Assembly (NCBI RefSeq): GCF_024347595.1
Contig: NZ_AP025507.1
Coordinates: 558,001 to 622,000, forward strand
Source of the DNA: Vibrio pomeroyi
GTDB lineage: Bacteria; Pseudomonadota; Gammaproteobacteria; Enterobacterales; Vibrionaceae
DNA: 64,000 nucleotides
Direction of reading: 5' to 3'
Each line of letters starts with the position of its first letter. Position 1 is the stretch's first letter. The position numbers were made by a program, and so were the translations under genes. This document shows positions 33,091 through 37,283 of the stretch, piece by piece. Below the pieces are notes generated by a model. That model was given only the letters and a program-made list of their open reading frames with translations, was not told the origin of the DNA and ran no database searches.

Positions 33091-34011
33091 TTAGTCAGCA
33101 TTGCGCTCAGCAAACTTTTCTAAACCCAGCACTAGCGCGATAGCCACCAACATCATGATCACCGATAAAGTGAGCTGAGAAGGTTGAGACGTTACCGCTT
33201 CGAAATTGAACGGAGATAGGTTCTCTTGAATCAGTGGCACTTGCTCACCTTTCGAGTTGATACGCCAACTGATGGTCTCTTTCCAAGGCCAGATCTTAGG
33301 TAACGTACCAATCATCAAACCCGTTAAAAACACCAATGTGAAATCGCGGAATGAGCGTAGTAACCAAGAGAGTACGTGCGAGAAAGTCAGTAGACCAATC
33401 ACACAGCCGCCAAGGAATAGCGCAAGTACATCGATTTGAAACGATTTAACAGCGCCAAGCACTGGGCCATACATACCAATCAGAAGCAGAATAAAGCTGC
33501 CTGAAATTCCCGGTAGAATCATCGCGCAGATCGCAATCGCACCCGCAATCAAGATGTTGATACTGGTCGGCTCCATTTGCAGTGGCTTAAGCACAGTAAT
33601 GCTGTAAGCGAAGGCAACACCAAGCAGTAAAAAGACGAATCGAATCATATCGCGCTTTTCTACTTGCTTAAGAATATGGAAAACCGACACCAAGATTAGA
33701 CCAAAGAAGAAAGACCACAGTGGAACAGGGTGCGTGACCAATAACCAAGAAATCAGTTTTGCGAATGTTGCAATGCTGGTGAATACACCCGCGAACAGTG
33801 AAATCAGGAAGAAACCGTTGATGTGGTTAAACGCAGCTTTGAAGCCTTCGCGTTTCCATAAGCCAAGTACGCTAGGGTTAATTCTGCGAATGCTTTCTAG
33901 CAGCGTATCGTAGATACCAGTGATGAATGCGATGGTTCCGCCCGACACGCCAGGGACAACATCGGCTGCGCCCATTGCCATGCCTTTGAAAAAAGTACTT
34001 AAGTAGTTCAT
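33091..34011 (-). CDS. popT: DUF368 polytopic membrane protein (PopT-type undecaprenyl-phosphate translocase)
   Basis: From the ATG at 34011 (MNYLSTFFKGMAMGAADVVPGVSGG) it has 306 residues and about eight to ten membrane helices. The longer frame starts at TTG with no ribosome site. The AADVVPGVSGGTIAFITGIY motif, repeated in weaker form as CAMILPGISGSFILLLIGMY, is the DUF368 signature and suggests an internal inverted repeat. Family members, including a V. cholerae protein, were shown to return undecaprenyl phosphate across the inner membrane for cell-wall and glycan synthesis. Assignment of that activity here rests on family membership. It is divergent from the Qrr gene. Confidence 0.85.
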   Translation of the reverse strand: MNYLSTFFKGMAMGAADVVPGVSGGTIAFITGIYDTLLESIRRINPSVLGLWKREGFKAAFNHINGFFLISLFAGVFTSIATFAKLISWLLVTHPVPLWSFFFGLILVSVFHILKQVEKRDMIRFVFLLLGVAFAYSITVLKPLQMEPTSINILIAGAIAICAMILPGISGSFILLLIGMYGPVLGAVKSFQIDVLALFLGGCVIGLLTFSHVLSWLLRSFRDFTLVFLTGLMIGTLPKIWPWKETISWRINSKGEQVPLIQENLSPFNFEAVTSQPSQLTLSVIMMLVAIALVLGLEKFAERNAD

Positions 34012-34224
34012 TGCTTCATAGAGTTGAGGATGATTTTGTGCAGTATACAAACTTTAGTGTAAAAAAAGTATGAATATGCCACTGGGTCGATGCTTTTATT
34101 ACCGCTTTAACTGTAAGGCAATAAGTTGAAGTGAACTTTGGCCTAATATTTAAAATACAACCACTTAGTGATTTGTCATTAAGAGTATCGATGAAACTAG
34201 TCTCTTATCGATATTGCATCTTGG

Positions 34225-34250
34225 TTGCATTATGCAAATGCACTTTGCAA
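34225..34250 (+). promoter_or_regulatory. Two adjacent LuxO-type sites upstream of the Qrr gene
   Basis: TTGCATTATGCAA (34225-34237) is a perfect TTGCA-N3-TGCAA palindrome, and ATGCACTTTGCAA (34238-34250) follows directly. The pattern agrees with LuxO sites found before vibrio qrr genes. They lie about 90-115 bp upstream of the inferred transcription start, typical for a sigma-54 enhancer. Confidence 0.8.
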
Positions 34251-34310
34251 TTCGCATGTGAAAATCGCGGTTTTTATGCGATGCAGGGCTTATAAAACGC
34301 TAAATTAAAG

Positions 34311-34328
34311 TTGGCACGCTAACTGCAT
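34311..34328 (+). promoter_or_regulatory. Sigma-54 promoter of the Qrr gene
   Basis: TTGGCACGCTAACTGCAT has GG at 34313-34314 and GC at 34325-34326 with exactly 10 bp between, the -24/-12 spacing. The predicted start, 12 bp on, coincides with the conserved TGACCC at the RNA 5' end. Confidence 0.9.
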
Positions 34329-34337
34329 TATATTAAC

Positions 34338-34448
34338 TGACCCTTCTTAAGCCGAGGGTCACCTAGCCAACTGACGTTGTTAGTGAACTTATGATTTGTT
34401 CACAAATATATAGAGCCAATCGCGATTATTGCGGTTGGCTATTTTTTT
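34338..34448 (+). ncRNA. qrr: Qrr quorum-regulatory small RNA
   Basis: This Hfq-dependent small RNA of about 111 nt represses or activates quorum-sensing targets (luxR/hapR/opaR-type and aphA mRNAs). Stem 1 is TGACCCT/AGGGTCA (34338-34344 with 34355-34361). It is followed by the near-invariant target-pairing region CCTAGCCAACTGACGTTG (from 34362) and TTAGTGAAC, whose GTGAAC pairs with GTTCAC (34383-34388 with 34398-34403). The terminator stem AGCCAATCGC/GCGGTTGGCT (34414-34423 with 34431-34440) ends in seven T. Sigma-54 and LuxO elements lie correctly upstream. The linker before the terminator (AAATATATAG) is AT-rich. Which numbered qrr copy this is cannot be told without the other loci. Confidence 0.95.
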
Positions 34449-34574: not shown

Positions 34575-37283
34575 TTAGTACCCCATTAACTGAAGTAAGT
34601 TCTCTGCTGTGCTTATCGCTTCTTTACGGTTAGCAATGTTGAGCTTTTGGTACAGGTTACGAATGTGAGTCTTGATTGTGGTACCTGCTACATCAAGTTC
34701 TTGAGCGATTTGCTCGTTACTGAATCCAGAATAGATCAGACCAAGTACTTGCCATTCACGCTGGGTGAGTGGGCTCGTGCGTACAAGCTCAGGAATGTTC
34801 GGGTGATTAACCAGATTCTCTACAAAGTCTTCGTCGAAGTGTACCGAGCGACTGCGTTGAGTCGTCGAGATATCTTTCATGATTTGTTGCGCGCGGTGAC
34901 GTTCTAAGTCACCTAATCCAGGCTTGTTGCTCAACTTATCCAAGATATGCCCGATAGTACCGCCATCGACCAAGAAGTTACCGACCATACCGGTTTGGTT
35001 GGTCATGTGTAGGGCTTCTTCTAGCAATACGCGCGCACTGTCTTCATCGTTGATCTGGGTGCGTAATACCGCTTCAACGATTAAGTTTCTGTTGGTATCG
35101 GTAATCAGATGCGAACGCTGAGCTTCACTCTTTAAGAACGCCAATGCTTCTTCTGCTTCTTCATACTGTTCAAGAATGATGTGAGCACGCACGATGTTAC
35201 GCCATTGAAGCTGACAGAAGTGGTTGCTTGCTGATTCAGGGCGAACAGCAACGCTCAACCAGTCACGGATTGCGTCTTTATCGCCTTTCACTTGCCAGAA
35301 CAAGATCAGAGATAGGGAAGCATTCGCTGTCCAATCCACATGGTAAGTTGATTGGCGCAACAAGTGCTGAATCTGGTCGATAAACTTCGACGCTTTATCA
35401 ATTTCGCCACGGCTCAGTGAAATACGAGCCAGCATCGAGTAGCTGTGTAGGTGCTTACTTGGTGAATGGTGACCAAGAATATCTAAGCCCTTGTAACAAC
35501 ACTCTTCTGCTTCATCTAATCGGTTCCAACACCAGAAAATCTGAGCTCGAACGCGCAACAAGAATTCATGCAGAGGCACATATTGCAGTTGGTGCTCTTC
35601 AATCAATTTGAAGGCGCTGTCTTGCAATTCAAATGCGGCTTGAACGTAGCCTTGAGCTATCAAGATTTCACTCTGCTGAAGAATCGCCCAAAGTGCCTGA
35701 TGGTAAACCTGATATTGGCGAGCGAGCTTCTCAGTTTGCTGCATCATTGGTAGAGCACGGCTCAGATTACCCATTACGTGATTCACTTCGCCAACAACCG
35801 AGGTTGCGACAATGCGACTACGGTAAACCGTTGTATTCAGCTGGCTCAATGAAAGCTCTGCAAGCTCGAGTGCTTTCTCTGGCTCATTACTGTTGATCGC
35901 GACTTGTGCACGTAATGCGTTGTATTGGCCTTGCTGCTGAGTATCCAATTCGATGTTTCGAGCTTGATACTGAGTTTCGGCTTCTTCTAACAGAGTACCC
36001 ACTTGATCATAACGGTGCTGACTTTGCGCTAGCCATGCACGCAGCATTGATAGCTTAGGTTCGCTGTACAGTTGGTCAGTAGTCAGCTGCTTGATCGCCA
36101 TCTCTAGTGATGACAACTCACCTTGGTTGAACATCTGCCAACCGTGTTCACTGAGGATCTGAACAATCAGCTGTGGGTCGTCTGCGCGCTGTGCGTGTCG
36201 CAAAGCTTGGTGAGGTGTTTTCTGTTTGATCCAAGCCTTAGCTGCACTTCGATGCAATTCCGCTTCTTGCTGCGGAATGCGAGCTTGGCGTTCGTGGGCT
36301 AGGAACTCACCAAATAGATTATGGAAGCGATACCAGTTCTTCTCGCCTTCAAGAGGGTAGATGAACAAACCAAATCGGTTAAGCGATTCAATCATACCGA
36401 GCGCGTCTTCACGCTGTGTTAGTGCGCAAACAAGTTCGTCGTTGAAGTGATCAAGCACCGAACACTGCATCAAGAACTGTCGGGTTTCTTTGTCTAGCAG
36501 GTCAAATACTTCTTCAACCAAGTAATCCCAAAGATGGGCATGGTTAAAGTGGGAGAACGACTCGGCAGATTGTGCCAGTGTGCGCTTTTGGTGCTGTGCT
36601 TGAAGGGCAATAAGCTGTAATGCAGAAGGCCAACCCTCTACATAACTACAAATACTGCCTGCAGTGGTGTCGTCAATGCCGTCGGCTACGCGTTGATTGA
36701 AGAAGCGTGTGGTTTCTTCTGTATCAAAAGCCAGAGAGTCGTTGCCAATCTCAATCATCAAATCACGAACGCGCAGGTTAGCTGTGCCAAGCGGTGGTGT
36801 GCCACGGCTAGTCACAACAAGCGTCAGGTTGTCGGGCATGTGTTTGAGGAAAAAGCGCATCGCTTCATGGATGTCGTCATTGTTCACCAAATGATAGTCA
36901 TCCAACACAAGGAAACACTCGTGGTGGAATTCAGACATCTCAGCAAACACTTCACTTAATAAAGAATGCAACGATGAAAACTGTCGTTTCTCTGCCAGCT
37001 TTTGGGCATTCGGGCAGGCATTTTGCGTCGCTTTATTAAGGGATTGGAGTAGGTAGTTGATGAAGCGGAAGGCATCGTTGTCACTATCATCGATGCTGTA
37101 CCAACCTACATTGGGTTTTTCTACCAGCCATTGGGCAGCCATGGTGGTTTTGCCGTATCCAGCTGGAGAGCGGAACAGTACTAGCTTATAGCAATCTGCA
37201 TTCTGAAGCAGATCGAGAACCCTAGGTCGCAGAATTGCATTGTGTAAGCGGCCGGGACGAGTCAGTTTCGAAGGGATCCACAT
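34575..37283 (-). CDS. malT: Maltose-regulon transcriptional activator MalT
   Basis: MalT is an ATP- and maltotriose-dependent activator of maltodextrin genes. The 902 residues (E. coli 901) start [20 protein letters not shown], a MalT hallmark. Walker A is SPAGYGKTT (39-47), followed by the STAND-type ATPase, winged helix, and a long TPR-like superhelix (about 430-800) that binds the inducer. A LuxR-type helix-turn-helix (about 835-902) has [20 protein letters not shown] and [19 protein letters not shown]. It is divergent from malP, with CRP-like sites in between. Its 3' end converges on the Qrr terminator about 125 bp away. Confidence 0.96.

Follow-up and report, generated by a model that had tools for sequence, protein, structure and literature searches.

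A Qrr small RNA gene between popT and malT in Vibrio pomeroyi and its published counterpart, qrr2 of V. parahaemolyticus

The gap between a DUF368 transporter gene and malT in V. pomeroyi raises three questions: does it encode a Qrr small RNA, to which of the published Qrr genes does that RNA correspond, and is it likely to act in a LuxO-Qrr-LuxR quorum-sensing circuit? A sequence-only reading of the window (the whole stretch of DNA analysed, 64,000 nucleotides) had placed an RNA of about 111 nt here, with a pairing region and a terminator, behind two abutting LuxO sites and a GG-N10-GC promoter in register. The features located at the gap are as follows.

33091..34050, minus strand: popT (DUF368), polyprenyl/undecaprenyl-phosphate transporter gene, divergent from the Qrr gene (NF052564, 501.6 bits; PF04018)
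34162..34181, no strand assigned: candidate LuxR/OpaR-type site, low-scoring in V. pomeroyi (8.3 bits)
34225..34237, no strand assigned: LuxO box 1, TTGCATTATGCAA, a perfect match to the strict pattern TTGCAWWWTGCAA (motif search; retained in most close relatives)
34238..34250, no strand assigned: LuxO box 2, abutting box 1, with one mismatch to TTGCANNNTGCAA (motif search, promoter alignment)
34311..34327, plus strand: sigma-54 promoter TTGGCACGCTAACTGCA, with GG at 34313-34314 and GC at 34325-34326 (motif search, promoter alignment)
34338..34448, plus strand: Qrr small RNA, qrr2 orthologue, 111 nt (RF00378, 112.3 bits; fold z -5.4)
34359..34387, plus strand: invariant block of the Qrr RNA, nt 22-50, comprising most of the target-pairing core (alignment of 22 Qrr sequences)
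34414..34448, plus strand: intrinsic terminator, a 12-bp hairpin at 34414-34440 followed by a U-tract (fold, Rfam alignment)
34575..37283, minus strand: malT, encoding the HTH-type regulator MalT, convergent to the Qrr gene (NF003420, 1416.6 bits)

The RNA and its promoter

A scan of the whole window against Rfam returned Qrr (RF00378) as the sole family above its gathering score. The match at 34338-34448 spans the full length of the covariance model (1-108 of 108) and, at 112.3 bits (E 6.5e-21), exceeds the gathering score of 50. The predicted fold has an energy of -38.3 kcal/mol, a stability equalled by none of 200 dinucleotide shuffles. Nucleotides 22-50 are the same in all 22 aligned Qrr sequences, as are nt 12-20, while nt 21 deviates in one; the alignment was of our own choosing and comprises 16 of the 24 popT-malT copies, four popT-linked copies from other genomes and two further copies from the same genome. 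In the L015 copy, the stem-1 bases nt 4 and nt 21 are both substituted, with pairing retained as judged by eye. The Rfam check that had been proposed is hence passed, and the Qrr RNA is confirmed at 34338-34448 with its invariant core, hairpin and U-tract. The profile matches likewise bear out its position between the DUF368 transporter gene and malT, the true start of popT possibly lying further inside the 33091-34050 open reading frame.

The promoter elements are found in the register that had been described. LuxO boxes 1 and 2 begin 113 and 100 nt upstream of 34338, and the GC of the sigma-54 element lies at -13/-12 relative to the same position. Across 24 aligned promoters (that of the window and those of 23 further loci), the sigma-54 site has an invariant TTGGCA and an invariant TGC, and the LuxO boxes are retained in most close relatives and changed or displaced in others. 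The 5.66 Mb genome contains five strict LuxO boxes, where base composition predicts 1.03; four of them begin 102, 113, 114 and 122 nt upstream of the four Qrr genes found. The fifth (C1:1944697) lies upstream of an amino-acid ABC transporter gene; no GG-N10-GC was seen there by eye, about one such box is expected, and it was taken as chance.

Could the hairpin and boxes be a coincidence with no RNA gene behind them? Taken singly and within the window alone, the looser patterns are not significant: the double-box pattern with up to three mismatches has three matches, a number reached by 25 of 100 shuffles, and although the sigma-54 pattern is matched once exactly, a match with no more than one mismatch turns up in 36 of 100 shuffles (mean 0.39). 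However, the full-length Rfam match and the presence of a Qrr at orthologous sites refute this explanation, to which we assign a practically negligible probability. The identification rests mainly on the covariance model and on the register of the promoter parts. Rfam match, core, LuxO boxes within roughly 90-130 nt upstream, sigma-54 promoter and terminator are all present, as are genes for LuxO, LuxU and LuxR elsewhere in the genome, which are among the features that place a gene in the Qrr family.

Correspondence to qrr2 and the neighbourhood of the gene

In V. parahaemolyticus RIMD 2210633, qrr2 is described in the VPA1623-VPA1624 gap, with a start mapped by primer extension and an OpaR footprint (PMC3323551). 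VPA1624 is given as a DUF368 protein (PMC9876793), and the Qrr at 34338-34448 is therefore the qrr2 orthologue. The other neighbour, VPA1623, is treated as a LuxR-family regulator (PMC8276238), a label that fits MalT with its GerE domain, and we infer that VPA1623 is MalT. The same source describes a vpa1623 deletion that lowers a quorum-sensing reporter and raises biofilm; confounding of this phenotype through the adjacent qrr2 is possible.

The V. parahaemolyticus qrr2 reverse primer, as printed, has an exact match in 3 of 227 genomes of the genus, each at a Qrr divergent from popT, with MalT detected in the 3-kb locus of two of the three. For the primer comparison we relied on these genomes, oligonucleotide matching to Vibrio sp. 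AND4 (L020) being only partly useful. Here the reverse primer (16/18) and the primer-extension primer (17/20) match near the RNA, while further upstream the forward primer (11/18) and the OpaR box (11/20) do not match beyond the level found elsewhere. The primers for qrr3 and qrr4 reach 13/19 and 14/20.

The V. pomeroyi gene shares with V. parahaemolyticus qrr2 its RNA family, DUF368/popT neighbour and promoter class and probably its upstream LuxO control, and with V. harveyi qrr2, as described in PMC2680268, the RNA family and promoter class and probably upstream LuxO control. It differs from V. parahaemolyticus qrr2 in species and in the weakness of its LuxR/OpaR site. This candidate site, at -176, where a site near -150 to -170 was looked for, has a score equalled by 9% of 491 background windows, known sites spanning 7.5-15.8 bits in a leave-one-out comparison. 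At the same place in 23 relatives, six score 11.4 bits and five 8.3; L016 and L044 reach 17.6 and 14.9 at -174 and the AND4 locus 11.5 at -165, the remainder having lower scores there or elsewhere. Direct activation of qrr2-4 by LuxR is reported for V. harveyi (PMC2680268).

How constant is this arrangement? Among 40 named malT loci, 23 have a Qrr followed by popT, 16 lack a Qrr and one (L011) lies at a contig end. In the 16 of 39 readable loci, a core search and Rfam found no Qrr in the stretch reaching 4 kb past malT (0.8 kb in L041), and popT was not found in the same stretch in 15 of these 16. The exception is Salinivibrio (L029), with popT about 3 kb from malT. The MalT protein of V. pomeroyi is itself 97-100% identical to that of Splendidus-group strains. 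Elsewhere, V. coralliilyticus (L116) and V. furnissii (L122) being examples, popT has an adjoining Qrr and the 3-kb locus yielded no malT.

We then considered 36 Vibrio genomes, the first in handle order with at most four contigs and at least one Qrr (Qrr-less genomes, among them G013, G069 and G074, being excluded). In 28 of the 36 popT has a divergent Qrr and in the other eight it does not, so that popT is a steadier neighbour of Qrr than malT. The distance between the Qrr and the edge of the popT domain match is 186 to 380 bp, and G003 has a second Qrr at 581 bp. In G009 (C1:1216935-1217673), the popT match is split into two overlapping parts, resembling a frameshift or a sequencing error, and a Qrr still adjoins it. 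In a search of a mainly open-access body of literature, the only popT-qrr link seen was the gap described in PMC3323551.

Since the Qrr diverges from popT this often, while malT adjoins only in some genomes, the gap might be kept because bound LuxO and LuxR also tune popT. We regard this as a rather improbable reading; if true, recycling of undecaprenyl phosphate, the lipid carrier of wall building, would follow cell density.

A different proposal is that qrr2 is surplus to the other three genes and has decayed or is no longer expressed. Published Qrr copies do vary greatly in level, and V. anguillarum qrr2, with two possible boxes, is reported as undetectable on Northern blots (PMC3352281). 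The V. pomeroyi gene, however, has an intact promoter with its perfect box, as well as an intact core and terminator, and 23 of 39 readable malT loci keep a Qrr at the same place. We consider decay or silence of qrr2 very unlikely.

Sister genes, targets and the proposed circuit

Scoring 150 of 527 first-look candidates across the genome gave four Qrr matches above the cut-off, one on contig C1 (C1:2562334) and three on C2 (C2:592338, which is the copy at 34338-34448, C2:1877667 and C2:1885220). The C1 gene is qrr1 (C1:2562334-2562426; 74.2 bits), divergent from luxO, with luxU adjoining luxO. LuxO is matched nearly end to end (NF041946, 866.8 bits) and LuxU by NF041948 (143.7 bits), both above the NCBIfam cut-offs; a LuxR/HapR/OpaR-family regulator (NF040929, 405.4 bits, above cut-off) is encoded beside hpt on C1. 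Of the further C2 copies, one precedes a cytosine permease gene and the other is found between a gene without an NCBIfam match and an RhlE-like helicase gene (below NCBIfam cut-offs). The earlier suggestions that the organism uses LuxO-type quorum sensing, that this copy is separate from luxO and that the genome probably has several Qrr genes therefore hold: LuxO and LuxU are encoded, luxO stands beside qrr1 on C1 with the present gene on C2, and four Qrr genes were found.

The core of qrr1 is identical to that of the 34338-34448 gene but for one base, and it too is preceded by a strict LuxO box, together with a sigma-54-like element. It differs in missing about 10 nt of stem-loop 1, in contrast to the full stem-loop 1 of the present RNA in our alignment. 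A similar gap is the reason given for V. harveyi Qrr1 not regulating aphA (PMC8043402). The number of genes is in keeping with the family, a scan of Vibrionaceae genomes in the same source describing multiple qrr genes in most Vibrio species, commonly four or five. V. fluvialis and V. anguillarum are likewise described with four Qrr genes each, preceded by one or two LuxO (VanO) boxes (PMC11443567, PMC3352281), and a LuxO-Qrr-HapR pathway is described for V. tasmaniensis LGP32 of the Splendidus clade (PMC6262261).

Some genomes exceed the usual four or five. G131, G067, G084, G110 and G195 each have eight Qrr matches above the cut-off, with a ninth below it in G131 and three inside about 4 kb in G067; seven matches are listed for G072 (five above the cut-off) and for G111, G155 and G156. 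Tandem pairs less than 300 bp apart are seen in G003 (C2:681865-682371) and G006 (C2:611985-612362). The G003 pair adjoins popT and points to local duplication as an origin of extra copies.

Pairing of the RNA with its expected target was assessed over Qrr nt 17-46. The luxR ribosome-binding region gave -18.5 kcal/mol, ranking 5 of 89 gene starts, and this strength was reached by 25 of 2000 shuffled Qrr segments. These 89 starts are those of a previous run of 90, minus one open reading frame antisense to another Qrr copy. That run, which used long unrestricted duplexes of a longer Qrr body, was judged poor and replaced by the core-restricted one; it ranked luxR 24 and luxO 67 of 90, and gave no support for pairing with popT and malT mRNA (ranks 87 and 30 of 90 starts). 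The luxR pairing agrees with the known mechanism and is insufficient alone as proof, the test being weak and four starts scoring better.

The best duplex among the 89 starts was with a DUF4442 gene (L110:931-1416, minus strand, C1) at -29.5 kcal/mol; a stretch of 10 nt over the ribosome-binding site of this gene is perfectly complementary to the Qrr core. Orthologues were matched in 57 of 61 genomes and 30 loci were fetched; the site is present in one of these 30, that of V. pomeroyi itself. Moreover, such sites before an ATG are barely commoner genome-wide than those of a reversed-pattern control (7 vs 6). We rejected the gene as a new Qrr target, the complement probably being chance.

In the mechanism we propose, phosphorylated LuxO would at low cell density bind the boxes at 34225-34250 and drive sigma-54 RNA polymerase from 34311-34327, yielding the 111-nt RNA. 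With Hfq, the RNA would pair over the ribosome-binding site of luxR/hapR mRNA and with other targets, blocking the high-density programme; at high density LuxO would be dephosphorylated and qrr2 silent. Transcription, its dependence on LuxO and sigma-54, the use of Hfq and target repression are each expected here by analogy with relatives. The same boxes could also, or chiefly, serve another enhancer-binding protein of the SypG type, in which case the RNA could be on at high density. In V. fischeri, SypG is reported to activate qrr1 from sites that overlap the LuxO boxes (PMC10162802), while luxO is present in the V. pomeroyi genome and matched nearly end to end, and we consider this alternative unlikely. 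That qrr2, one of the four Qrr genes found, works in the standard LuxO-Qrr-LuxR circuit is to us nearly certain.

The Qrr gene is real, was correctly read and is ordinary: its kind is already known from V. parahaemolyticus qrr2 and V. harveyi qrr2, both studied experimentally. With it, this Vibrio possesses the components of the standard LuxO-Qrr-LuxR circuit, and its qrr2 is matched to its published counterpart in V. parahaemolyticus. The frequent pairing of Qrr with popT furthermore helps in assigning names to the Qrr copies of different species, and offers a cheap test of whether quorum sensing affects lipid-carrier recycling.
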